DNA of 64,000 nucleotides from Scleroderma bovista (lineage: Eukaryota; Basidiomycota; Agaricomycetes; Boletales; Sclerodermataceae). Shown here piece by piece: positions 6,279-34,930 of the stretch (the stretch's first letter is position 1; every line of letters begins with the position of its first letter). The stretch spans positions 1 to 64,000 of the forward strand of contig JAYMGJ010000219.1 in assembly GCA_037178675.1 (NCBI GenBank), in the 5' to 3' direction. The position numbers and the translations under genes are program-made. Below the pieces are notes generated by a model that was not told the DNA's origin, searched no databases, and was given only the letters and a program-made list of their open reading frames with translations.

Positions 6279-8012
6279 CACCAGGACAGCACGAGTGCCA
6301 ACACATTAAGTTTCCTCCGACGTATATTACACTGACTATACTTCAAGTAGCACCACCGCAAAAATGTCAGATTAAATTTCCAATTTGCGATTCACATTTC
6401 TCACTACATTTACACCCGGCTTAAATTCTGCTAACCGCGTTGTGTCAGCTGCGTTCTGGTGAATTCAATGTTGCAATGAATCACTGATAACGAGGGGATA
6501 TACTACACGGGGAATCATACTACACGGGGCATCATACCAACGAAATCAACTACTGTCAATGCCGTCCCAGAATATCCTGCGGTGCATATCATACATCTAT
6601 TTCAGATGGCAAGCCTGTAAGTCGAAGCCATCTGCAGTTGCTCAGTCTCCTCGAGGATTCCGGTCTGGTTGCATCATTGATACAGGACGACTCGATCACT
6701 TTGCAATACAATGGTCGTCATGGATATCATCCATAAAGGTAATCCAAGACATACATACGCGATGCCCAATCGACTGTGGTGAGTCTGGGAACTTCGATCC
6801 GTACAAACGTGAGGCGAAACAATTCTCATAAGATGTGGGATAGTCCTTCAATGGTTGAGTGACTCGAGTCGCTTTCTTTAAATGCGAACATCACCCCAAC
6901 CCAGCGCGAAATATCTGACATGGATCATGTACCGGCCTGGAATTGGACGGACGACTGTTATCTCAATTTATACAACCCACTGATAGGCTTGTCACTTCCA
7001 AGTAACGACAACCTCAAATTATTGTTGACTTCTTTCTCTACTCGACTCGGGCCACCGACAGATACCTCGTCACAAGGGTCATACAGTGTCCTCCTGATCC
7101 TCACCAGCCCAATTCAACCATTACAACACCTTTATACAGCGTTGCAAAGCCATTTGTTTGGCACCGAAATGAGTTCTGTGGCAGAATAGTGGTCGACAAG
7201 TCGCCAAGGGTCCGTCGGTGCTATCGCCGTCCCTGTTGAATCCTCCCACCGTGGATTCAGCCTTCGGGGCTAATTCATTCATTCATACTTACAATCGCAT
7301 TAGCCCCCCCATCATACGGCAGACTGGTCCGTGAACAACTATGTACAACGGAGTCCCGACGTGTTCAAAGCCTCGACTCGAATGTATTCCACATACCACT
7401 GTCGTGAGTCGTGACACAGCGTGTGTGACATGTGTCGGATAGTAAACACTTGTTTTCTGGCACTTGACTTGACTGCTCAGCTCGTGTTGATGTTGGTGAT
7501 GACATCAGTTCGGGCATACTCGTTTGAGGTAAAACTTATCTTCCACCATTTATCATATCGGGTTAACTTGGTCACCATCAACTGATTTAAATGATCCCTG
7601 CCGGCTGATTGGACACCACTTCGTGTAACGAGTTACATTACTTGAGATAGGACATCGCATCCCCGAAAGTTTGCGCGACTTTGTAAAATTACACAAAAGG
7701 CAATCACACCCCTGTCATTGCCACAACCATCATCTAGTCAGAGGAGATCAGCCAGTAGCTTTATTGAGTTGCGCAGATTATCGATTGACAAAAGGAGACT
7801 TGCACAGTTATTCCTACATATGTTGCGATGAATAAAAAAGAGAAAGAACCAAAGACAAAGCATGATAGACATCCATGCAAAGCGATGCATCAACACAAAC
7901 ACATGCAGCCACATTCCTGCGCCCTCTCCCCCGGGACGCGAGCGAATGCATGGAAGCATCTGGAGGAGTTGGTCTCCACCGGCTCTCCAAGATCAGACCA
8001 CGAATGCGGCCG
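6279..8012. other. Intergenic, no recognisable gene
   Basis: About 1.7 kb. Small plus-strand ORFs at 6559-6831 and 6920-7189 have splice-like signals around them (for example gtaagt at 6616 and gtgagt at 6780) but match nothing I know, and no consistent model emerged. Two copies of ACTACACGGGG lie near 6502 and 6519. The right part includes the 3' flank of the DOA10-type gene. Confidence 0.35.
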
Positions 8013-11000
8013 TTATAGCACACGCTGCTCCAGTGTACCTTCGGTATCAGACACTGCGTTGTCTTTCACCTCAACTTTGTTTGGATCGTGATTCTGTAGT
8101 CGCATTTCCACCAAGAACTCCTTGTCGCGGATGGCCTGCGACCATAAAGCCATCATGCCCATCGCGGAGGCGCACATGCGGAAAAGTCCTGCTGCTGCGA
8201 AAATGCCGGGGTATGCGTGGACGACTAAGGGGAGAAATGCAACAAAATCGGTCACCATCACCGGCCATTCGTTTATCTATATGTAAACACTTACATAGGA
8301 ATTTCGTGCTCAGAGGCAGATGGAAGACTTTTCGCACGAGGTAGACGAGACCCGCGGGGATGGCAAGCATACCTAACAACCCAGCGATCAGGGGAAAAAT
8401 AAGCTGCTTGGTGGCGTGTCGCGGGTCTGGGTTCGACCAGCCATTGCTGAGAAGCTAACGTAGAGGAGTATTGAGTTAAGGCTGGTGGGGAATAAAGAAA
8501 TACTTACCGTCTGAAGACCTTGTGATATACGCTCCGGGAACTGCACTCTTCGGCGAAGCCGGATCGCAATCTTGCCATAAATGATACCAAGAGACCACAT
8601 ATCCACCATTCGTATCCTTGGTAATATATCGGGGTTGTGTGTGAGCCGAATAGGTAGTATGATATAGAGATCGACGACGAGGCCTAGCAACGTTGGGATA
8701 ATGACCCCGAGGAACACTACCATGTAGGTAATTTTCGAAAGCCAGAGGAGACTGCGTTTGAGGAAAAAGACTACGAAGTCCGGCCTAGAATCGTTGGAGC
8801 TAAGACGTAACCGTCGCTTGTTCATCCAGTCTGCGGCATGTGCGATTGCGTAGCATGCCCACAACAGATAGAACCCGGCAAGGAAGGAATAACCGTCGTG
8901 CAGCTCGGATGGGGACAAAAGGGCAAAGAATCGTCGGCCTATCTGAACAGGCAATGCAATACACATGGCTGTCACCACCGCAACGATTGTCCAGATGGCA
9001 GCAATAAATGTGAGAACCCTTGCACGAAACTGTGGAGGGAAATACACGACAATGTAATCAGCCCGGATGTCGCGCTTGGCTCTGGCAGCTTCGATATTTT
9101 GCATGTTGATCAGGTCTCTGGCTGCATCATTTACGGGTAAACCACTCTCGAGTACCTCTGCAGTTGCCCGCATGTCCCTTGGAAGCGCAATGTTGTCACT
9201 GGCAGGTACCCGACGAAAGGTCCCATCTTTCACAATTGTCACCTCCTCCATGTCTTTATTCGATCTTCTGAAGAATGCAGCCCAACTTCGGTACCGCATA
9301 GTCTTCTCCTGGCTTGAGTGTCGTTCACCAAACATGTACGAAGTCAACCGCAAACCGGAAGCCAAAAGTCTCCAAACATGCACAGACGCCTTGTGTAGGA
9401 CCTTCCGTGGCTTCAGATAGCGTAGCGTGTAAGGCAAAACGATCTGAAGAAACAACAAATCGATGGGAACATCTGACAAGGGTTCGCTGTTAACGCTCGA
9501 GTGAGACGGACGTGTCGTCAATCCGGGCAGTGGTACGAACCGTGTCTTCCACCGGATGGGGAAGATAGATTTACTTCCGACGAAAAGCAAGATGGCCAGG
9601 CTGCCAACGCCACAGGCAACCACCATTGAGTACATGAACGCACTGATGAGAAGCTTTCGGAACTGTGTCAGGGTGGGTCTATCGAGAATGTCGCGGATGG
9701 GGTGGAAGTTCTGGTCTTGAGGGTCCTTGATGAACCACATTGCACCTGGGCGCATGATACTTCTACAACCAGCTAATAAAATAGCGAATTGGTACCTGGG
9801 CGGGCGTCATTACTTCGAATTCCTTGGTATATCCGTTCTATTACTCACATGAACATTGTTCCCGCGACCCAATGATAGAACATGGCTGTCAAGGGTGCCT
9901 GTGTAAAGAATGCCAAACGCGATTCAATTGAAGCCTCCGGGAAAACCCATATAGTGCACGCATCAAGCATGATGCCACATCCTAGGGGGAATATGACAAG
10001 TTCAATGATGATAAACATCGCGACCTATCATTGGCTTACTCAGCAATGGACGGGATAACGTTAATCAGTGCAACCACATGCCTTTACCACCAGCAACTGT
10101 TGCCTCACTGCATTCCTGACAACCCTACCAGTGTTCCTTGCATTTCCAGCACTAAAAACACTCAAATAAAGAGCAAGGGACACTGCAACGACCACATAGC
10201 CCAATCCAATGGCGAACGTACGCTCCTGTGTTCCGTGACCCATCGTCAACTGAACCCAGGACCCCTGCACTTGCTCAGTTATGAGTCTGATTTCCCGACC
10301 GAACAGCGCAAAGTATGGTTCCAAGAAGCGAGCAATCATCGACTCGCTCTCAAAGAATTTATCGATGTAGCTGGGCAAACCAGGGGACGGTTCTTCGGGT
10401 GGGGACCGCAACCATTCAAGAAGCCTCCCTGAAAATTGAGATGCTCGCGATGCCTACGGAAGGATACCTTGTTCAGAACATGATATGAGAAAACAAAGGA
10501 CCACATACCAGCAAAGGGGGCAGTTCAGCTGCGACAGCAGCAGTGGGTGACCCTGCCAATTTATCCACGCCAAACAAGGCAAGACGGAAGAGAAGGTCTA
10601 GTGTCACGTAAAACACGGGGAGTATGGAGCGGCTCAGGATGAAAGTGGCAATGTCCACAACAGGATCTGTGATTACTCTCATAGCACGGATAGGCAAATG
10701 AAGGATATGCAGTGCTCGAGGCGGGTCCAGCTGTCGATGCATGCGGTATAAGTACGATGTGGTTGAAAAGTATTAAGGTATTAAAGGTGAACTCACCGAC
10801 AACAAAGCCACCGTCTTGCCAAGAGTGAAGGGAAGCCCTATCCCAAAACCAATGGCTGTAGCGAGGACAAGGATCATCAGAAAAGCCTGCATGTCGCTGT
10901 TAGCTCGGGGAAGAACGTGGTAATGAAAGCTGATCACTACATTTTGAACGACACCGAAAATAGGTCCTCGAAGACCAATTGCTAAGGAAACCTCAGCAGG

Positions 11001-20978: not shown

Positions 20979-21567
20979 ATGACCGCTGATCTATCGAGGG
21001 TCACAGATTTCCCAAACTCCAATGACATCAGCGTCACTAGCAGAGAGGCTTTCAGCCAACAGGCTGCAAGTGGTATCGACGAGATCACAGGAATTGACCC
21101 TTCCCTGTCTCCGGAACCCTCATTCCCATGCCGCCTTCCACCAGAACTATTGGCCGCCATTTTTCTCGAATACATGCAACAATACAAGGGTTCCTTACTT
21201 TACCATACAAGGGTTCCCCCTTGGGGTTGACGTTTCTTATGTCTGCCGGTACTGGCGCAATGTCGCTCTGAGCTGTGCCAACCTCTGGACACATCCCTTT
21301 TTTGTATCATCGAATTGGATGGATGAATTACTCAGAAGGTCAAAGACTGCCCCTCTGATCATTCATATCAATTTCTATGATTGTCCGAATTCAGGAGGGC
21401 TAATCCGTTCCCTGGAGAGAGCACTGGGCCATATGGAGCGCATCCAGGACCTTTGGATTGATTACCACTATGACTCTGAAGATATCCTCAACATGATTCA
21501 TGCTAGACTAAGTGCAGCCGCACCATTGCTGCGGTCACTCCACATAATGCAACTTGCGAAAAGATAA
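20979..21567 (+). pseudogene. F-box protein, frameshifted and truncated
   Basis: The N-terminal half carries an agaricomycete-type F-box (CRLPPELLAAIFLEYM, then WVDVSYVCRYWRNVAL, SCANLWTHPFF). The two halves are in different frames: at about 21220 a run of four G (CCTTGGGGTT) adds one base compared with the frame that keeps PPW followed by VDVSYVC. The reading ends at 21567, exactly where a repeat found again at 22181 begins, so the C-terminal leucine-rich part usual for this family is absent. A nearby 12-bp direct repeat (TACAAGGGTTCC) occurs twice at about 21183-21215. Confidence 0.7.
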
Positions 21568-21775
21568 TTATATGGATGTTATAAATATCTCCCCCTATGA
21601 TATAGTGTTAGACAAGGGTGCAAAATTTCAATTGACCAATAACTGTACATAAAGATTGTAGTTCCTGGGCAGGTCACTCTTGCAGAAGCAATGTCTATCA
21701 GCTTGCATGGTATGGTGCATAGTGGAATAGGGAAGTACATTTTCAACATTATAAACAGACAGAAGGATCTGGCGG
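21541..21775 (+). repeat. Dispersed repeat, copy 1
   Basis: About 235 bp (from CATAATGCAACTTG to AGACAGAAGGATCTG) that recurs at 22175-22410 in the same orientation with scattered differences. It truncates the F-box gene. Confidence 0.85.
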
Positions 21776-22027
21776 GTGGCCCGTATCAGCAAAACCATAA
21801 GTGTGCCGAGCTGTACCGCTGGCTACAGTCAGCTACAGTTCCCACAGCGGTACAGATGCGGTCCCTGGTTTTACGGCGCTCGCGCACTGTACACACTATA
21901 CCTAATGTAGATAGATTCGATCTCTGTGCCCGCTGTACCCCACTCATCACGGGGACCGTCGATCCATGATAAGCTATGATTACAAAACAAATAACTTGAT
22001 CATATATATCATATATTCAGCCTCATG

Positions 22028-22206
22028 ACATACTGATATATGATCTTGTCATTAAGTTACCAACAGCTATCTAATTCAGCATGACTGACATAATGCAACT
22101 CATGAAAAAATAATTAATTGTCATTATATGATCCATGTCATTAAGTTACCAACAGCTGTCGGATTCAGCATGACTGACATAATGCAATTTGTGAAAAGAT
22201 AATTAT
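22028..22206 (+). repeat. Tandem duplication, ~89-bp unit
   Basis: Two head-to-tail copies sharing TCATTAAGTTACCAACAGCT and CATGACTGACATAATGCAA, offset by 89 bp (22049 and 22138). The second copy runs into the second dispersed repeat. Confidence 0.8.
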
Positions 22207-22410
22207 ATGGCCATTATCAATTTCTCCCCCTATGATACAGTGTTAGACAAGACTGCAAAGTTTGTATTGACCAATAACTGTACATAAATATTGTAGTTCC
22301 TGGGGTAGATCACTCTTGCAGAGGCAATGACTATCAGCTTGCATAGTATGGTGCATGGTGGAATAGGAAAGTACATTTTCAACATGATCAACAGACAGAA
22401 GGATCTGAAA
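22175..22410 (+). repeat. Dispersed repeat, copy 2
   Basis: Direct repeat of 21541-21775, about 635 bp downstream. Both copies contain CTCCCCCTATGATA and GACCAATAACTGTACATAAA. Confidence 0.85.
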
Positions 22411-22526
22411 TACAGGTACTTTCATAGTAGGTGTATGGTAAGACCATGCAGTCATCTTCAAATAATATAAAATAGACATGTTCTATATATGGCCATGGAA
22501 GGCTGTGCTCACAACATATCAACTAG

Positions 22527-22660
22527 TAGTCTCGTTACCCCCTGTTCTGGCGGTGACTGCCTAATATAGGCAGAACAAGTGTCTTGACAGCTCATATGTC
22601 ACCCAGAACGTCTGGTGACTTTCGTAGTAGTTAGAGAGGATCGAGTCACATCTGTCACAC
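22527..22660 (+). repeat. Left terminal inverted repeat of RecQ/DUF6589 element
   Basis: Pairs with the reverse complement of 24683-24612 and then 24185-24115 once the solo LTR is removed. Shared blocks include TGACTGCC, GCAGAA, CAGCTCATATGTCACCCAG and AGAGAGGATCGAGTCACA. Confidence 0.85.
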
Positions 22661-22704
22661 TGTAACACCTTCCAAAAGCTAAGAGTGTGTTGCGCCCACT
22701 CCAT

Positions 22705-23385
22705 ATGGCCGTGGTGAAGTCATCGGAGGTACCACACAATCCAGAACAAGCACAATCTTATCAAAATCTTGAAGCTGCACGCAAACTAGCCAGTAAAAAT
22801 CATGGCTACAACTCTGCCTCCATGTGCAAGCAACTGAAAGATGCATTCCACATCCATACAGAAGGCCGTGAGCCCTTCAAGTGGCAGCTGGATGCTGCAG
22901 AAGCTTTTTTGTTAGGTTTGGACTGTCTCATTGTTGCAGGGACAGGGACTGGAAAAACCTTACCATTTGTGATGCCGGCATTCATTGAACCAAAGAAAAC
23001 CTACATCATGATCTCACCTCTGAATGCACTCAAAGAAGATCAGGTTGGGTAATGGTAGTCATTGCCTGAGCTCTGCTGACTGCTTCTGTATGAACAGACC
23101 TCAAGATTTAAGGCTATGGGATTGACTGCAGTGGCCGTGAATGGTGAAACATGGTCTGATGATTTACTGCAGGTCAGACATGGAATATTCTCCTGTGGGC
23201 CATCACTTATTGAGATAGAAGTACAGGATCTGAAGGATAGTACCTACCAAGTCATAGCAACCTCTCCAGAGATGCTAAACTTGCACTCGAAATTTTGTGA
23301 CCTTGTACAGTCACCCCCCTATGCTGGTTCCATTGGGGGGCTCATTATAGATGAGGCACATGTCATCAACCTGGATAAATATTAA
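22705..23385 (+). pseudogene. RecQ-like DNA helicase, 5' fragment
   Basis: Exons 22705-23043 and 23098-23385 encode the first part of a superfamily 2 helicase: a Q-motif-like region (FKWQLDAAEAFL), Walker A GTGTGKT, motif Ia (ISPLNALKEDQ), a TSPEM block and Walker B DEAH (IIDEAH). The frame stops at LDKY right after DEAH. All later helicase motifs and the RecQ C-terminal domain are missing. An extra short intron starting gtcaga at 23176 is possible but does not change the frame. In the full-length ancestor this would be a 3'-5' ATP-dependent helicase. The cut coincides with the point where the opposing DUF6589 fragment begins. Confidence 0.8.
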
Positions 23386-23416
23386 AGGAGCTCGTATAGT
23401 AGTACAAAGATATAGT

Positions 23417-24082
23417 CTATACCAATCTAGAATCCTTTTGTGTGTTCTCCCACTCCTGCCGCTTTGTTCTTGTCAGCTGTGACAATAAATTCCATAGCTT
23501 TGGGGTGCCTGTGCCCATCTCCATGCATCCACAATAAGCATTTGTGAAATCCACAAGGGACTTCGACGTGAGCGAGCTTTTTGTGAGGTCGTGCATGAGC
23601 ACTTGCGATGACAGCCGAAGTGAGGCAAGTTCGCGTGCACAAATATCTTGCATTTGCTGTAACATGAAGTCTTTGATGTGCTTTCTACCTCCCATTGCTC
23701 GGACATCGTGCGACTCTTGAACACATGTGGGGGACAACCACCTCTCAAGGATGTGAGGGAGTTCTTTGCTCACCATCAATCCGGTGCGCTCGGATCGGAT
23801 CGTCGGATCCACGATACACCCTGGATCCCCCCAGCTCAGATAGTCAAGGAATAAAGGCAAGTTCAGTCCGACTTTATCCATCTCAGCCAGAACTGACCTG
23901 ACGTGCACCGCAATGCTGTCAGTGTACTCATGCTGCCTTTCACGCAGATACTGTGTCACGGCTATCTGGATGGGAGGGTTTCGAGGCGGTGGCATGGATG
24001 GTAGATGCGGAGCTGATGGCTGCGGGGGTGGCTCGAAGTTGAGGGATGTATCACTATCGAATTCGTCACTGGAATCCATCAT
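23417..24082 (-). pseudogene. DUF6589 protein, N-terminal fragment
   Basis: The ATG at 24082 opens a frame of about 221 residues with an acidic start (SSDEFDSD), a Pro-rich stretch, and blocks I associate with the N-terminus of the basidiomycete DUF6589 family (IRSERTGLMVSKELP, ILERWLSP, WENTQKDS). The family's long C-terminal part is absent; homology appears to stop near 23440, then a stop follows. Function of DUF6589 is unknown. It lies inside the TIR element, convergent with the helicase fragment, and its 5' flank is the right terminal repeat. Confidence 0.7.
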
Positions 24083-24185
24083 GTTGTGCACGATCAGAGG
24101 GTAAGATTTGAAGGCTGATTGTCACGCTTGTGACTCGATCCTCTCTAGTCACACCGAAAGTCACCAGATGTTCTGGGTGACATAT

Positions 24186-24611
24186 TGTAGCAACAAAACT
24201 GGGGCAACAGCAATGGGGTAGCGCAAGCGTACCTTTGATAGCTAGTAGCTGGTTCTTGAAGTTGAGTTGTTTGTGAAGTAGCAAGTAATGAGAGAACAGT
24301 TGAACTGTATTGAACTAAAGAAACTACAGGGAATCCTACAGAGTATATATACCTGTGGTACATGGTCTGTGCGTAGATAAGTATTATTCTCGCCTATTTC
24401 ACCATATTCCCATATGTAGTAAGTGCAGTTTCCATAAACGTAGTTATCTGGAAACATGCCTGTAACGTGCATCAGCATGTGTTATACACGTGCCTTGCAT
24501 GTGATAGTTCCAGTATTCCGGTTGACACTACTCCAAATCACATGTAACTGTGATCTCTGGAATCTCCAAGATTAGATTAAGATAAGATATAATCATACTT
24601 TCTTGTCGACA
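24186..24611. mobile_element. Solo LTR, 426 bp
   Basis: The segment starts TGTAGCAAC and ends TTGTCGACA, the TG...CA form of a long terminal repeat. It is flanked on both sides by CATAT (24181-24185 and 24612-24616), a five-base target duplication. Removing it and one CATAT restores the right terminal repeat to match the left one (GTGACATATGAGCTG). No internal retrotransposon region is present, so this is a recombined solo LTR that inserted after the TIR element was in place. Confidence 0.85.
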
Positions 24612-24683
24612 CATATGAGCTGCTGATGCGCTCATTCTGCCCATATTGGGCAGTCACCCCCAGAACGGAGGGTTGCGAGACTA
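24612..24683 (-). repeat. Right terminal inverted repeat (outer part)
   Basis: Outer half of the right TIR; the inner half is 24115-24185 beyond the solo LTR. It ends with CGAGACTA followed by the ATCAACTAG duplication. Confidence 0.85.
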
Positions 24684-24888
24684 ATCAACTAGGCTACATT
24701 TCGTGCGGAGAGCTCATTTCCTATATTGCCTATTTGGGCACAACTCACGATGCACTCTCAAAGTCGAGAACACAGAGTGCATTCTGAAGTTGAATTGCCC
24801 AGGCGTCCAGATCGATGGAAGGCAATTAGTGTCGATAGTATCGGCGTATTCGTGCCTGAGAATGAGTCTGTTGAGAAAGCAGGTTGCA

Positions 24889-25941
24889 TCAGCAAACCAA
24901 CCCTCCCCTGGACAGCACTGGACAGTACTGGCCAGTTACCCCAGAGCTCCAGCTACTCCTAGCAAGGTACCTAACTGGCTAGCACTGTCCAGACTGTCTC
25001 AGTAGTACTATCAACAGCATCCATATTACCTTTACTGCCTGTACTTGAAACTTTTCAAGCACTCAATTCATTCAATGTTAATGTTAACCAATTTATATTA
25101 ATTCAATAAACTACAGAACAAAGACTAAGTATTATATATACCGAGGTGGTTGTCGTCGTCGTCGATGGCCGCAATGTCGACGCAGGTGATGGGGGTAGTG
25201 GCGGTGACTGCGGCAAGGTGGTCATTGTTATCATCGTCGTCGCTGGTGGTGGGGTGGGTTGTTCGTTGTCGCGTCGTCGATGCTGCTGGTGGGGTGGTGG
25301 TTGTCGTTGGTGGTGGCCTCGTCGACGTTGGTGGTGGTGTCCGTGGCATCATTGTGGCCATTGGTGGTGGTCGTCGCGTTGTTGACGCTGCTGGTGGGGT
25401 CGTGTCAACGAGGCTGGTGGTGGTGGCGGTCGTGTCGTCGATGTTGGTGGTGGTGGCCACGTTGTCATTGTCGACGCTGTTGGTGGTGGTGGTCGCATCA
25501 TCGTTGACGGTGGTGGGGTGGTGGTCGCGTTGACGGTGGTGGTGGTGGTCGACGTTGGTGGGTGGTGGTGGTCGCGTTGACGGTGGTGGTGGTGACTGTT
25601 GGGTGGTGGTCGACGGATGAAGAGAATGAGAATGAGAGACTTCAAATTTTCAAGTATGTGTGTGCGTGTATTTGTGTAACAATTATATCAGCATATTGAA
25701 CTATCAACATTTCCTAATTATGGCGTAATATCTGCACATTTATTTTCCGCAGTCGCACTACCGCACCACCGCGCTAATATCACTGCGCTCAACACTCACC
25801 GCACTCAACACTCAACGCTCACCGCTCACCGCATTCAACACTCAACACTCACGGCTCACCGCGCTGGTCTCGCCACACTGACCTGGAGCCCACCGCGCTC
25901 GATTCACACCGCTTTCCCTCACCGCACTGGACCCCACACTT
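24889..25941 (+). repeat. Left TIR arm of 8.8 kb element
   Basis: The outer part (24889-25075) holds CAGCACTGGACAGTACTGG and CACTCAATTCA, matched in the right arm. A GGT-rich satellite follows at 25144-25620. The inner 25716-25941 is a near match to the reverse complement of 32700-32928, itself made of degenerate CTCACCG / CTCAACA units. Confidence 0.8.
25144..25620. repeat. GGT/GTC-rich satellite inside left TIR
   Basis: Irregular runs of GTGGTGGT, GTCGACGTTG and GTCGTCG. Open in several frames only because of composition; no coding claim is made. Confidence 0.85.
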
Positions 25942-26283
25942 CTGGCTAATATCTGTGGCCACAACTTGGCCAGGCCCATGCGTCATGTACATGGTGTGTT
26001 GAGCGTTCACGATGACGTGTTCAGTGGGGATGTCCGTCAAGTACAAGAGACTGTCAAACAGCCACCACTGCCAAGTTCAGCAGGACGCAACGGATGAGAG
26101 AGCAGACCGCAAATGATGGAACGCACAGACGCAATGGGTGCCATAGCCACCAGCACAATCAACATAGTGTAGCATTTCCCTCCCTACTATTGTAGCTCTG
26201 CACGTCCGTAGGAAAAGAGCGCTCGTAATTATTCCAGTTCTAAGTATCTGACATGGTCATGTTTGGATGAAACAGAACATTTT
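25942..26283. other. Spacer between left TIR and BTB gene
   Basis: About 340 bp, presumably the 3' flank of the BTB gene. No feature recognised. Confidence 0.4.
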
Positions 26284-27194
26284 CTACATAGGTATGAGCT
26301 TCGCCATAAGGTGGTCCCTGACCTCAGTGATGAATCTATCTGAATGTAGAAGAGGTATGTTGATTTCCACTACAGTGTTAAACATATTCTCCTTGCAAGC
26401 GTCACCAACCCGGCCAAACTGTAAGCACTTGAAGTGTTTCAGCGCTTCACCAAATGGCTGTGGGTTGTGTGAATCAAGGAGAAGTTGCCCCATACCATTC
26501 CACCATACACTCTGCCAATCTTCATCGCATCCTTTGCGGTTTCGACAACTGCTGGCATGTTGCATCACGGGGGGCTTCTCAGCAACCTCGCGGCGGTAGT
26601 CATCCAGGACTGCTTTTGCCTGAACCAGTACAATGTAAACTTCCATGCTCATCTTTTTTCGCTGCTTGTTGCTAATCGTCGCCAATCGGGTTTCGACAAG
26701 TCGGTTGAACCCCGCTGTAAAGAGTTCCCGACTTTGATACTCGATCCCAAAATGGACGATCTCCGCCGCATCGAAACGGTGTTGTTTATCTTTGATGCGT
26801 TGGATGACAAAGGCATGAGTACGAGTGCACTCGAACTTGCGGGTGAATTCAAGGAAGTCCTTGAGCTCTTCGGGTTCGTACTTGTAATGATCACGGGGAC
26901 TAGAACAAGTTAATTTAGTTGCTAGACGAACTACACAAGCACTTACCGGCCAAACTTATACTCCACAAACAGGTCAAAAGACTTCACCGTCAGTTGCGGC
27001 AGCCGAATTGGGCACTCGTCGATTGTACCCTCCACCGTTTGCCCACGGGACCCAATGTTAAAGAGGTCCACGAAAATATTGGACTCGCCCACCAAAATAC
27101 CATGGTAGAGTTTGTACAGAGTGTTCTCGACTCGCAAGATATATGTGCCATCTTCGAAGTAGAATTCAGGATGGCGAGTAGCAGGACAAGTCAT
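26284..27194 (-). CDS. BTB/POZ-domain protein
   Basis: Two exons (27194-26947 and 26899-26284) give 287 residues with no interruption. The N-terminal half is a BTB fold of the type amplified in agaricomycetes (HPEFYFEDGTYILRVEN, LYKLYHGILVGES, IFVDLFNIG, then LTVKSFDLFVEYKFG). The rest is helical (EELKDFLEFTRKFECTRT, FVIQRIKDK). BTB domains mediate dimerisation and often link Cullin3 ligases or transcription factors; the role here is not known. It lies inside the TIR element, start codon 133 bp from the divergent integrase start. It may be a captured host gene or an element-encoded accessory factor. Confidence 0.8.
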
Positions 27195-27327
27195 GACGAA
27201 GATAAATGGAGAAGGAAAGAGGTTTCCAACACGAACGACCGAACCTTTTACCTTTTTCGGACGGGTGTGATTTTCTTTATTTTGTTTGTCACTAATCAGA
27301 CCCAAAGTTTCGTGTATACGTACGCTA
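27195..27327. promoter_or_regulatory. Divergent promoter inside the 8.8 kb element
   Basis: Only 133 bp lie between the BTB start (minus) and the integrase start (plus), so the two genes probably share one control region. Confidence 0.5.
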
Positions 27328-29202
27328 ATGGCGACGTTTCCTTGCCCCATTCCTCAACTCCCTGCAGGTACTATATTGTGGCCAGCAAATCTCCTTCTTG
27401 TCCATGATTCGCTATCTGAAATTTATCAACATGCCCTGCGGGCATGGGAACAAGAAGATGCCGACCCTCTCCGACTTGAATTTCATCTCGGCTCCCTTGA
27501 AGGCGACGCTATGCACCTCCTTGAAGCAATCGAAGGCGATCCTATCGGCCCTGAACTGACGGAGTGGCTAACGTGCTTGGCTGAACTCATTGGTCAATTG
27601 TACATAGCCATCGCAAGTTATCGAGACAACATTCAGAACCGGTGAGTAAAGCCAAGAATCTGTGGCCGCTAGCACTAACGTGTAATTAGGAGAGACGAGA
27701 ATGTAATCATCCCACAGTGTAACAGTGGGTTACACTGGTTTGCGAGGACGACCAAAGAAGATCGTCGACCTCGAGTTTCTGAAGGAAGCCATCTCGAATT
27801 CCCACAATATTAGCTGCGCCGAGCTTGCTCGTTCACTCGGTATCCACAGGAACACCCTCCGTCTCTACATGCAGCACCATGGCATTGAATGAAAGTATAC
27901 CCCCATTGGGGATTCGGACCTCGATAATCTCATCACAGCATGTAAGAAGAAACGCCCCGACTCCGGCATTCGATACATAATGGGATTTATGCGGGCACAT
28001 GGGATCCGTGTCCAATATTGCCGGGTGACTCAATCCATTCGTAGAGTCGATCGCCTGGGCCAAGTGTTACGAGACCGCCGCGTGAAAACCAGGCGCAAAT
28101 ATCATGTCAAGAGGCCCAACACTCTATGGCACATGGATGGACATCACAAGTTGATCCGGTGGGGGATTGTGATCCATGGATTTATTGACGGATTCTGCCG
28201 CACGGTATGTTCTATTCTTCTATTAAATAACCACTGATAGGCTCGTTTTTAGGTGACCGCAATACGAGCTAGTGATAATAACCGGTCGGAAACCGTGCTG
28301 AATTTATTCGAACAAGCGACTGCGCAGTATGGCATACCGTCCCGTGCACGGGGTGATCGTGGCGGGGAGAACATTGATGTTGCGACCTTTATGATCATGA
28401 AGAACGGTCGTCACAGAGGATCATTTATTTGGGGCAGGTATGTACGCCTCACCTTTTCCAAAAAATTTAATTGCTAATTATGAATACAGCTCTACTCGAA
28501 ACTGCCGCATTGAGCGGCTGTGGGTTGAAGTCGGAGCTCAGTTCGCCAGACGCTGGCGAGCATTTTTCATGCGACTTGAACGTATTCACATGCTCAATCC
28601 TGGTGACCCCAATCACCTTTGGTTACTCCATGCACTTTTTCTTGATGACATCGACGAAGACTGTCAGGCATTTCGTGACGAATGGAACTGCCACCCGATA
28701 AGTGGCCCAGGCACGAACAACAAGAGTCCGCAGGTAAGTGTTACGTGCTACTTATTCATCCTCTATCTAATGATACCAAATGCAGGATCTACGCTTCTTA
28801 GGCCAGACTCGTTTTGGCTTATATCAAGAACACGAGGAACACGAACTCTTGGAAGACCACACCACTAACACGGTTGGCACAATTATGCGTCAACAACAAG
28901 ACCACATCAACCACGAGGCGGTTCATGTGCCATTGCGTCGGAACCCATTCGGTGACAACGACATGGAAGCTATTTTTTTCACAGGTCTTCGTGAGGTGAT
29001 CGCACAAGATATCACACCAGACAACTTCGGATTGACGCCAGAGGAGTGGCCTTCGGGTCACTATCCTATCTTTGAGCCGATACGAGTCGGACGCCGTGCA
29101 TCTAAGTATGTTGAGGTTTCATTAGCAGATCCAATCTGGTATTCTCGAGCATGCCTGTGGTGCCAGGCCTTATTGTTGTTATCTGTTTACTTAACTTCTT
29201 AG
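27328..29202 (+). pseudogene. rve-type integrase/transposase with one in-frame TGA
   Basis: Five exons (27328-27641, 27718-28204, 28253-28437, 28490-28733, 28786-29202) span 549 codons. A helix-turn-helix follows a GRPKK basic stretch (ISCAELARSLGIHRNTLR). The integrase core shows LWHMDGHHKLIRWG (first Asp), SRARGDRGGENIDV (second Asp) and STRNCRIERLWVEVG (Glu), a full D-D-E set. A TGA at 27890-27892 sits between the HTH and the core (HHGIE-stop-KYTPI); everything else is open and correctly spliced. The family is widespread in agaricomycete repeats. It is presumably the recombinase of the surrounding TIR element. A ribosome could not make the full protein without readthrough, unless the TGA is a sequencing error. 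Confidence 0.82.
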
Positions 29203-29267
29203 CCTTGTATAAGAAGACCAGTTTGATCTTTCATTTACTGATCGTTGTGTTGACCCTGATCCCACTC

Positions 29268-30855
29268 ATGAGTTCGTGCAGGGGGAACAAGTGCACATGC
29301 GAATGTGAACGTTTTCGGCCCTCAAGAGAGAACGACGCTATTTGCCAGGAATGCGATCACGGAATCAGTAAACATCCTGACAAGGATACTCCAACAGCCC
29401 CTGTTCCACCCGCTGGCTCTGCTCTCCCCGCTGGCTCTGCTCTCCCTGCTGCTCCTGCTGGCCCCGCTGTCCAAACACTGCCAGTTACTCAAAACTCAAC
29501 AAATGCAATGACGGTTTTCAGAAACGCAGTAGCCAAGGCTGTTCAACGGCCACCTCCCACGTCTCGACCTGAATTTGATGCTCGCCGGGAGGCCCTAGCG
29601 ACGAAGAAGACAACAAAGGCTTCGAAGTTTGGCACCACTAAAGTGAGTACATAAACTTATCACTGTCTACAACTAATTCATCAGTTTAGACTTCATCATC
29701 TGATGATGCAAAGAGCTGTGGGATCTTCCATGTAGAAGCCATCGGGATTGTTACATGCGGTCTTGTCAAGCTCGTAAGTCCACCATCGTGACACCTTCTG
29801 AGCATAAAAATCATTTAACCGTCTGGAGGATGATCGCTATAAGGTCGAGACGCTATTCCCCGTCAATTCCAAAAAGAGACGGGACTTCATCCAAGACCTG
29901 GCTAACCACGGGTGTTACCTTAAGCAATTGAAGACGGGGTTCACCATTAACAAGGGATGGAAGTATGCCGACATCACCAAGCAACTTCATCTATGGTTTC
30001 CGCAAGTTTTCGATGTCCTCGGCGCGCGGCGCCGGACAAGCCCCACTGGTGCTGAAGCCCAGCCCGATTGGCAATTGTTATCTTGTGACGGCCGACCACT
30101 CGCATTCTCTGTCGTGAAAACTACATTTCCGGATGCTGACACGCTACAGACATACAAGGGTCGCGCCAAGGCCGGCATCACTGGCAGCCATCTGTGGTTC
30201 AGTAAGTCATTATCTCAGAGCTCAGTCACATTTCAATCCTGATTTTAATTTAGTTACTCGCAATGCAGTTTCTACCCGAGTTTACCAATCCTGGTACAAC
30301 CAACCTGAAGTGGCACTTTCGGATCAAGGAAGCACCGACGGTGATTCAAGTGATCAGGAAAGCACTGCAGAGGAAGAGGATATCATTGAGCTCTCCAGCT
30401 CCTTGGCTGATCTAAACGTTGCATTTGCCACATCGCAGAGAGGTAAATCCAACCTCATCATTATTTTTCTTACTGTTAAATCTGTAATTTAGGGAAAAGA
30501 GATCGACCCATTGTAGTTTCTTCTCCTGATTCCACAAGCTCGAAACGAGTCCTTCGCAAGAAATTCAAGAATGGTATATATTTTTTGATTTGTGGTTTCG
30601 GTAACTTATATGTTTTTCCATTTAGGCAGTTCCCAAGCCTTGCCACCTCCCCAGTTCAGCAGAACTAGTCAGCCAGCTAGTATAACCCGTGTCCTGGAAA
30701 CAGTCGAAGTGACGGAGCGTGATCAGATCCTCCGTGGAGTCGCTCCACGTACTAGTACCGATGCGCAAGACCCTTGGGACATGGATTTTTCCGCAACAAC
30801 TGCTGCACTCGGCGTTGACATCAATGACTTCTCCCCGTTTCATGACAAACAATGA
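29268..30855 (+). CDS. Cys-rich protein of the 8.8 kb element, 443 residues
   Basis: Six exons (29268-29642, 29690-29773, 29829-30201, 30254-30442, 30493-30573, 30626-30855) splice to an intact frame. The N-terminus has a compact cysteine/histidine cluster (CRGNKCTCEC, then CQECDHGISKHPD) that looks like a small zinc-binding module, followed by an Ala/Pro repeat (PPAGSALPAGSALPAAP). A globular middle part contains IVTCGLVKL, WKYADITKQLHLWFPQVFD and VTRNAV-like residues near the exon 3/4 join. The C-terminus is acidic then disordered. I recognise the family as one multiplied in agaricomycete genomes but know no function. Possibly a DNA-binding accessory of the element. Confidence 0.72.
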
Positions 30856-31125
30856 CTGACATTACATATTCTTGACGTTGCTACGTATTAGTTTTGATTT
30901 GCAATACAAGTATGCTCATTTGACTAGCACTACCATGAGTTACCCACTGTGCACCTTGAGAATTTCATTTATGTGCCGAACCTCGAAGAATCTGCAGGTC
31001 CTCTTCCCCCATACAATTTGCAATAGACATTCATTTTTTTCGCGAATTCATTTGGAATGTGATGATAAGAAACTCCTAGATGCTGCTGAGATAAGCAAGA
31101 CCTCCTCCTCCCGAACATCCATCCC

Positions 31126-32563
31126 TTGGTGCTTGTTTTGCAAGAAATGGTACAAGATTTCTGGTCGTCATCCAACAGATTTCCTTGCTTTCCATCCGCC
31201 GCACTGAAGGAGCTTTCCTTAGCCAAGACTAAGCAGATCTGTTCAACTTTACCCCCCATCAGAGGTGATGCTCCGCACAATGCCCCTCCTCAACATCTAC
31301 TTTCAGTTGGTCGTCTGAATCGCGGTAAGTTTACAAACAACCTAATCTCAGTCTGTTCTAACTAATCTCTTGACCAGTTAAATGCCAGAGAATTCTCCGG
31401 GTTCTTTCTCGAACAGAACAGGAAGTATTGGTGGTGAGCCACAAGCCATGCGTGGGTATGACGGTTTAATGACTATCAAGCACAGTTTGAAGGTGTATCC
31501 TTCGACGACTACACCTACATCATGGCTCACTTAGACACTGTCGAGTGTTGGAAAATGTGGCAAAGGTGTGTTAGTATCTGCCACATTCCACACGATGAAG
31601 TGACTAATCGATTGTATTAAATACTAGGTTGACCTTTTTCCCTCAGTCCCAACGTCTCATGGCCTCATCACCAACACCCATGCACGAGTCCGTCTTGACG
31701 GCGGTCAGGGATTGCCTTGCCTTCGTGCTAGGCGGCATCCCCATTCACTCATACAATGTTTATCTAGAAACTAAACCCGCCACTGGCATTAGAATGTCAA
31801 CTGGGGTATCCTGGATTCCCGATGGTATCCTCGATCTATGGAGCGAACATAACACCACGTCACAAAGGCTCTGGCTCATCGAGTCCACTTTTTCTCAAAG
31901 TGATGACAGCGTCATGGCGAAACTCCGTGGCTACGCTCTTGAGATACCTGAGCTACTGGTCGCTTGCAAGATCTCGTTCGAGCAAGCTGGTATATATCGA
32001 AGCCCGGGCGTAAGATGTTCTGTGGCGAAATTTCTGCGGTCTTCACCATTATTGACCATCGGTGAATGGAAGAAACTTGCCGGGGATGAGTTTGCAGATG
32101 TGGTAGTTGACGGACATACCTGGTTCTCTCTATCTTCCGCATCAATCCATGTCTGGGTTCGCCTTCCTGATCACGGTATCGATATCGATCGACCGATCTG
32201 TGGCAGCTACAGCACTGGCGTAAGTACCTTTACTTCTTGTTTATTATACTAAGAAATGCTGATCTTCGCTTTCAGACTCTTTACCCCAACGTACAACTCG
32301 ATGATGTGAATGCGGCTTTCCTCTATGGCCTGGAACTGACCAAAGCGGCAGTTCTCAACGAACTGAAGGCTGGCGGGTACGAGACGCCACCAGATGGTGT
32401 AGAGGCGTGGACCCCCCCTGATGTCTTTGTACACCCGATGGAACTCAAACATATGCTCACTAAGGCTAGGGTGGACACAGCATATGAGCAGTATTGTGAC
32501 TGGCATGCCAAGCTGGCGAAGAAACCGTACAGTAGGCTGCATCGTAAGACTTGTAAGGACTAA
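31126..32563 (+). CDS. PD-(D/E)XK-like protein of the 8.8 kb element, 404 residues
   Basis: Exons 31126-31324, 31378-31433, 31486-31565, 31628-32219 and 32276-32563 give an intact frame. The core resembles a restriction-endonuclease-like fold: a helix with a conserved Glu (MHESVLTAVRDCLAFVLGG), then a WIPDGILDLW strand with the PD motif, then LWLIESTFSQ (an E-x-T variant of ExK) and a following helix (VMAKLRGYALEIPELL). The catalytic assignment is my inference from motif order. The family occurs widely in agaricomycete repeats. The N-terminus is uncertain: an upstream open stretch (LENFIYVPNLEE, about 30950-31020) may be an extra exon. It closes the plus-strand gene series just before the right TIR. 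Confidence 0.65.
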
Positions 32564-32699
32564 TTGTTACATTCTCCCATGTTTACATCACAGCTACATT
32601 CTTGCATTTTTTGTTACGCTTTTGCTCATGATTGATTCTGTACTTAATATTTGGGACAATACATAACGCAATCTGTTTCATATAACTATGCTACTGAGA

Positions 32700-33651
32700 A
32701 AGTGTGGGGTCGAGTGCGGTGAGGGAAAGCGGTGTGAATTGAGCGCGGTGGGCTCCGGGTCAGTGCGGCGAGACCAGCGCGGTGAGTGTTGAGTGCAGTG
32801 AGCGGTGAGTGTTGAGTATTGAATGTGGTGAGCGGTGAGCGTTGAGTGTTGAGTGCGGTGATATTAGCGCGGTGGTGCGGTAGTGCGACTGTGGAAAATA
32901 AATGTGCAGATATTACGCCATACCTAATAGTATTTACCGCGTCACTACACGCCTCGCCCACAGCCACCGTCACCATCAGCAACGACAATGACAACGACCC
33001 CACCACGGCCGATGGTGACGACACCAACCACCACCACCACCACCAGCAGCGTCGTTGACCAGACAACGACGACGACGGCTAGGCCACCACCACCGCTCCA
33101 CCACCAGCGTTGATGGCCACCACCAACGCGAGGGCAACGACGGCCCCACCACCAACGTCGTCGAGGTGGCCACCGATGACGACGACCCCCACCGTCAACG
33201 TCGTCGCCGTGGCCATCAACACTGACCACGACGACAACGACAACGACCCCGCCACCACCCCCAGCGTCGACGGCGACGTCGCAACGGCGCAATGACAGGA
33301 TGACTCCCATCCCAGCGTCATCCGACAATGACGCCCCCGACGCCCACCAACCTCCCAGCCACAGCAACGCTGGCCATCGCGCCAGCGCAGTGTCGACGAT
33401 CGCCCTCCCCTGCGTTCGACAACCACAGGCCCAGTCATATAAATATATTATTTAGTCATTTGTGATTAGCACTCTAGTTTTCTTTAGTCCTAATATACTT
33501 TTTTTTTCTCTACTGAATATTTGAATTGAGTGACAACCAGACTGGCACTCCGGGAGTCTGACAGACTGGCACAGAGTCGGACAGGCTGGGCGGTCGGCTA
33601 AGCGCTGTCAAGTGCTGTCAGCTCGGCTAATCGGAAGGGCTGGTTTGCTGA
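32700..33651 (-). repeat. Right TIR arm of 8.8 kb element
   Basis: Inverted partner of 24889-25941. The inner end (32700-32928) is highly similar to the left arm, the middle (32945-33420) is a CCA/GAC-rich satellite different in detail from the left, and the outer end terminates TGGTTTGCTGA. Confidence 0.8.
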
Positions 33652-34930
33652 TTTGAATTGCCCTCTTGATGCGGGCAGTTATCTTCACTGTGTGCACTGT
33701 CAACTGATGATGACAACGGCCATCCACCAGCCTGTTGTCCAGCGATGACAACAACCATATCCCCACCATTGTCCAAGGTGCTGTCGAGTGTGACCGGCAG
33801 GTGTACTGAATTTGCAAATGTACCCTAAAGTAGAAATGGTCAAAGCACGGGAAATGATCAGTAAGAACTGTACAGTACCCATGTTATATATAAACCCTCC
33901 TGGAAGGAACTGTTTAGGTTCTTCACTCTTGTCTGTGACTTCAATCTTCGTTGAAGCTGGGTCAGGTAAGTTACATTTCATTGGATCAGGGTTAGGTAAG
34001 TTGCATTTCGCCGGATCAGCTAAGTTGCTATTGTTTATCTCATATGGTAATTGCATGAGGTAAGTCACTAAACTTTATCTCTGAAAATCTGAGCCACAGT
34101 GGTTAGCAATTACATAATTAATAAATAGTGGTATTTTATGCTTGTTACAACAAAGTCCATAAACTTCATGTTGAAAGCCTTATACAGCCATATGTGACAT
34201 TATCCAACTCATGCAATTCAACCAATCTGATAAATCATGTCCCTGTTTAAACTCATGAGAAGTGTGGTCAAATTGTTATCTGACATGAAATGAATGGACA
34301 TACAGAACTTATAGTTTGTGTATTACCATGCCTATCATAATGTGTTAGGTTGCCATCACCTATAATTTTTGTGTCAAGCTCAAAGCCTTATACAACCATA
34401 TATAACATTATCCAACTTATGATCAATACAGGGTTCAGCCAATCTGATAAATCATGTCCTTGTTTAAGGACATGAGAAGTGTGATCAAGTGTTATCTGAC
34501 ATAGACTGAATGGGCTTACAGAACTGATAGTTTGTGTATTACCATGCCTATCATAATGTGTTAGGTTACCATTACCTAGAAATCTTGTGTGAAGCTTAAA
34601 GCCTTATAAGGCCATGCATGACCATCCTTGTCAGATAGTCACATGTTAGACACGGTACTTATTGCAAAGTGCATATACAGCATTATCGGAAAAATTCAGT
34701 CCCAGTGATGAATGTTGGTTGAATTGCTACCGAATTGCTGAACTACAGTAAAGGCATCGCCATTAGATACAGACTACTGCATCTGTCAGTGCTTCGGGCC
34801 AAGATCTGAACGGCTGTTTGAAAGTCTCTGTTGAAGTCGCACGTGCACCCGGCGTAAACCATCGACGAAGTGCGCACAAGACTGCGACCCATATTAGTGT
34901 AGACTTAGTAATAGTCCTCTTTAGAGTAGA
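33652..34930. other. Repeat-rich intergenic, no gene
   Basis: A short tandem repeat with GGTAAGTT(A/G)CATTTC recurs at about 33960-34030. A larger tandem repeat follows (see next entry). No coding sequence recognised. Confidence 0.5.
34174..34615 (+). repeat. Tandem repeat, two ~210-bp units plus partial third
   Basis: Units begin AAAGCCTTATA at 34174, 34382 and 34598. Shared blocks include CAATCTGATAAATCATGTCC and ACCATGCCTATCATAATGTG. Confidence 0.85.

Follow-up and report, generated by a model that had tools for sequence, protein, structure and literature searches.

A short terminal inverted repeat element in Scleroderma bovista as a probable internally deleted derivative of an AcademH-type DNA transposon

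Results

The DNA analyzed here (the window) comprises 64,000 nucleotides of contig JAYMGJ010000219.1 of the fungus Scleroderma bovista and contains, at positions 22527–24683, a terminal inverted repeat (TIR) element of 2157 bp with fragments of two convergent genes, one for a RecQ-like helicase and one for a DUF6589 protein (Table 1). The ends of the element are TAGTCTCG and CGAGACTA, and both flanks carry an identical, exact 9-bp sequence, ATCAACTAG; at one given pair of ends, nine bases would agree by chance with a probability of 3.8e-6 (4^-9). A preliminary description, made from the letters alone, had proposed just such a TIR element with a 9-bp target duplication, and its ends and duplication are borne out. 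The repeat search returned two inverted arm pairs, 22527–22599 with 24611–24683 (73 nt, 79%) and 22594–22659 with 24120–24185 (66 nt, 85%). They are a single TIR of about 130 nt, reported as two pairs since a solo long terminal repeat (LTR) has inserted into the right arm and divides it. This insertion of about 426 bp begins with TGTAGC, ends with CGACA and is flanked by a 5-bp duplication, CATAT, at 24181–24185 and 24612–24616, which is the anatomy of a solo LTR; it is not present in the copies on contigs C730, C440, C677 and C379. The copies that have both ends and no further insertion measure 1727 bp (C730), 1729 bp (C440) and 1726 bp (C677).

Table 1. Features of the element and its carrier repeat in the window
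Feature	Positions	Strand	Basis
Left target site duplication, ATCAACTAG	22518–22526		Flank reading and empty sites
Left TIR, helicase side, starts TAGTCTCG	22527–22659	+	Repeat search, copy alignment
RecQ-like helicase fragment, open frame 1, 128 aa, Walker A GTGTGKT	22666–23052	+	Open frames, Pfam
Helicase fragment, open frame 2, to DEAH box	23080–23385	+	Homology stops at junction near 23367
Internal deletion junction, helicase/DUF6589 sequence	23360–23372		Alignment with C644
DUF6589 gene, first exon, 234 aa	23417–24121	-	Upstream of Pfam domain and candidate catalytic residues
Right TIR, inner part	24120–24185	-	Repeat search, copy alignment
Solo LTR, TGTAGC...CGACA	24186–24611		Direct reading; comparison with other copies
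Right TIR, outer part, ends CGAGACTA	24612–24683	-	Repeat search
Right target site duplication, ATCAACTAG	24684–24692		Flank reading and empty sites
Carrier repeat, first part, left terminus CATCAC	21945–25718		Genome comparison
Carrier repeat, last part, right terminus GTGATG (start approximate)	~33269–34710		Genome comparison

Both gene fragments are cut at one internal junction. The helicase fragment, with its Walker A and DEAH motifs, matches the DEAD/DEAH family (PF00270, E=3e-8). The 234-aa frame alone gave no Pfam match, DUF6589 included. Its DNA matches contig C644 at 94% over 837 bp, and since the counterpart of this exon in C644 runs on into DUF6589 (PF20231, E=3e-95), the frame can be assigned as the exon that precedes the Pfam domain of DUF6589. 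The helicase assignment of the preliminary description was thus upheld by Pfam, and its DUF6589 fragment turned out to be this upstream exon. The single junction also stands, placed near 23367 by alignment with C644 instead of near 23400. The window copy is consequently without the Helicase_C domain and without any part of the DUF6589 Pfam domain.

For the insertion itself, both flanks were joined with a single ATCAACTAG and the resulting 264 bases were searched against the genome; counts from our genome searches are lower bounds, as only the best candidates were scored. An uninterrupted target was found at 20 other loci that match all 264 bases at 96–100%, and 2 further loci, shorter than the full query, span the joined-flank junction. 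These loci are empty sites and provide direct proof of insertion, in line with the earlier view that the element moved as one unit. Loci bearing the element match query bases 1–126 or 118–264, and the overlap of these segments is exactly the 9 duplicated bases. Both ends are present at five loci (C219, which is the contig of the window, C730, C440, C677 and C47) and one end at two (C515 and C379). A script found the two ATCAACTAG copies identical in C219, C440 and C677, and reading showed the same for C47; in C730 they differ by one base. All seven loci share the target site, orientation and flanks of the element, which points to one insertion that was multiplied, not to independent moves; the simplest account of these sequence data is that the element entered a carrier repeat once and that the carrier multiplied afterwards. 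The copy in C47 is interrupted by an apparent Copia-type retrotransposon, as judged from reading of frames only.

Longer relatives with the same kind of termini are present in the same genome, as expected for the internal-deletion derivative that the preliminary description had proposed. The 6186-bp element in C294 (L053:1356-7541) has ends of the TAGTCTCG type and is flanked by GCTTCTTTC, duplicated exactly over 9 bp; its genes are convergent as predicted, with helicase on the plus strand and DUF6589 on the minus strand. Such ends and convergent helicase and DUF6589 genes are also seen in C223 (6455 bp), whose TIRs are perfect over 125 nt, and in C692 (about 6450 bp); no duplication is visible at the ends of either. 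The DUF6589 match in C294 contains a stop, and so does that in C223 by frame reading; hence, activity is not claimed for these copies. C644 carries a window-type TIR and, facing each other, DUF6589 and the C-terminal part of a RecQ-like helicase; a second end of this element was looked for and not found. From the DUF6589 side, C644 and the window element would belong to one family; their helicase parts do not overlap. RecQ-like helicase matches are present in all four (C294, C223, C692 and C644). Near the expected far end of the C644 element, L047 has frames at ~6827–9431 that resemble a hAT transposase (reading only).

Genome-wide, 54 DUF6589 hits fall into 27 clusters, the short copies being left out, and a convergent RecQ-like helicase lies at a distance of 1.1–2.4 kb in 18 of them. 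Among the others, a differently oriented helicase fragment lies close by in C515, one lies 25 kb away in C196, and seven of the 27 clusters have none on the contig.

Eight independent insertions were examined for target duplications. Exact 9-bp duplications occur at three of them (the window site, C294 and C384), and none was found at C188, C223, C692, C764 and C529; the expected recurrence is thus supported by C294 and C384 and not by the other five. Pairs of ends without genes also occur, in C384 (131 bp, duplication CGTCTAATC) and C188 (148 bp). For the preliminary description, terminal repeats found without either gene would have counted against its reading and made the two genes passengers. 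In part they do count against it, but such pairs are expected as further deletion derivatives.

What, then, would mobilize these elements? The fold predicted for DUF6589 is like that of DDE transposases, with D314, D486 and E732 as conserved candidate D/D/E residues, and the solved folds closest to the model are those of Hermes (hAT) and the P-element transposase. The predicted fold and the candidate residues suggest that DUF6589 is probably the transposase of these elements. When five DUF6589 proteins were compared with Pfam, every match to a family other than DUF6589 had an E value of 0.08 or worse. One search returned 209 relatives; the named ones among the 120 listed come from mushroom-forming fungi. 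No paper naming DUF6589 was found in the literature searched. Naming it as the transposase may thus be new in words, although this protein may already figure, under its transposon name, in the work that described AcademH.

Several other features of the window concern the carrier, whose central part is what the 20 full-length genome matches given above cover. Its last part lies far from its first, which indicates another insertion inside the carrier, at ~25719–33268. A frame there (28401–28868) matches PF24764 (rva_4, integrase core domain), and three other frames tested within this insertion gave no Pfam family match. The carrier termini resemble PlavakaB, with a duplication that is not consistent. 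Just outside the left end of the carrier, 230 bases (21542–21771) are about 90% like carrier positions 22178–22407 and may be what is left of a further copy of the carrier. A degenerate repeat rich in GTGGTGG/GTCGTCG occupies 25140–25620, and its length varies among carrier copies. Directly after the right end, 70 bases (34711–34780) are 98.6% like the end of the RecQ/DUF6589 element in C529; genome searches gave no DUF6589 or RecQ-family match at these positions.

Discussion

AcademH was reportedly described by Kojima in 2020 (Mob DNA 11:15). According to later papers, it is a helicase-encoding DNA transposon found in fungi including Basidiomycota (PMC10045372, PMC10799480), it makes duplications of 9 or 10 bp that are related to its helicase (PMC10045372), and putative non-autonomous Academ elements are mentioned from a mushroom (PMC8290104). 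DNA transposons of fungi that bear a helicase and make 9-bp duplications are therefore a kind already described, and the earlier statement that no described class is known with this pair of genes is not supported. We consider that the window element is non-autonomous and probably derives from an AcademH-type transposon by internal deletion. Its class shares with AcademH, as compared by description, the helicase, the 9-bp duplication and the fungal range, and the DDE support for DUF6589 is at the level of the predicted fold; the window copy differs in being a deleted derivative.

Kolobok transposons duplicate TTAA. KolobokH is likewise a DNA transposon with a RecQ helicase and is described only from fungi (PMC9587614). 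The elements studied here differ in that their helicase lies on the opposite strand and that their 9-bp duplications (ATCAACTAG, GCTTCTTTC and CGTCTAATC) are not TTAA. The existence of KolobokH as another fungal lineage carrying a RecQ helicase, together with the structural resemblance of the DUF6589 model, which is closest to Hermes and the P-element transposase, lends some weight to the idea that the RecQ/DUF6589 elements form a separate superfamily nearer to hAT or P, which recruited RecQ independently and makes 9-bp duplications. DUF6589 would then be a transposase superfamily of its own with hAT/P-type structure, widespread in mushrooms, accompanied by a convergent RecQ helicase and placed outside Academ. 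hAT and P elements themselves make 8-bp duplications, not the exact 9 bp observed here at three independent sites, and to our knowledge they have no helicase gene. Against a separate superfamily, AcademH as published agrees with the elements studied here in the length of its duplications, in its helicase and in its fungal range. We regard both the separate superfamily and this placement of DUF6589 as unlikely.

Mutator-like elements have 9-bp duplications and long TIRs, as does the element of the window, and the preliminary description held that the duplication would fit Mutator-like transposition, possibly in trans. A 9-bp duplication has other routes, though, and none of the five DUF6589 proteins matched a Mutator transposase in Pfam at E<=1, a missing match being weak evidence. 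The same two traits would also suit a Mutator-like element with two captured host gene fragments, similar to a Pack-MULE; since both genes are carried by longer elements that end in the same way, and the five proteins match DUF6589 alone as noted above, we find this hardly credible. Could the fragment instead be functional? KP elements repress P, and truncated transposase or helicase peptides might similarly repress the parent. The 234-aa frame is open in four of seven closely matching loci (C219, C440, C677 and the longer C644), and the ratio of nonsynonymous to synonymous polymorphism (pN/pS) of the DUF6589 exon is 0.75 for the pool of all 10 pairs and 0.50–0.73 in those pairs that involve the longer C644. 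However, the ratio is 0.67–1.23 in the six pairs without C644 (C219, C440, C677 and C379), the helicase exon gives 1.00 pooled over 5 copies, and the 234-aa frame has a stop in the other three loci (C379, C47 and C730). Near-neutral change among the short copies, few as they are, fits a relic better than a repressor, and we judge a regulatory role very improbable.

For an AcademH-type derivative, the following course of events may be proposed. A full-length parent of about 6.2–6.5 kb would have TAGTCTCG TIRs and a RecQ-like helicase and DUF6589 gene facing each other. The DUF6589 protein, most likely a DDE transposase, would cut at the TIRs and insert the element with 9-bp staggered cuts, presumably assisted by the helicase, which might, for instance, unwind DNA or take part in gap processing. 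In the derivative, everything from the DEAH box of the helicase to the end of the first DUF6589 exon is gone; it makes neither enzyme and was presumably mobilized in trans. Its single insertion, at ATCAACTAG, was into another repeat, and multiplication of this carrier gave rise to the other loci.

In summary, the locus provides a clean case of a dead transposon that spread as a passenger in another repeat, as its many empty sites prove, and it warns against scoring such copies as separate transpositions. For DUF6589, which Pfam lists as a family "of unknown function", the proposed role as the probable transposase of these elements is a function that can be tested.
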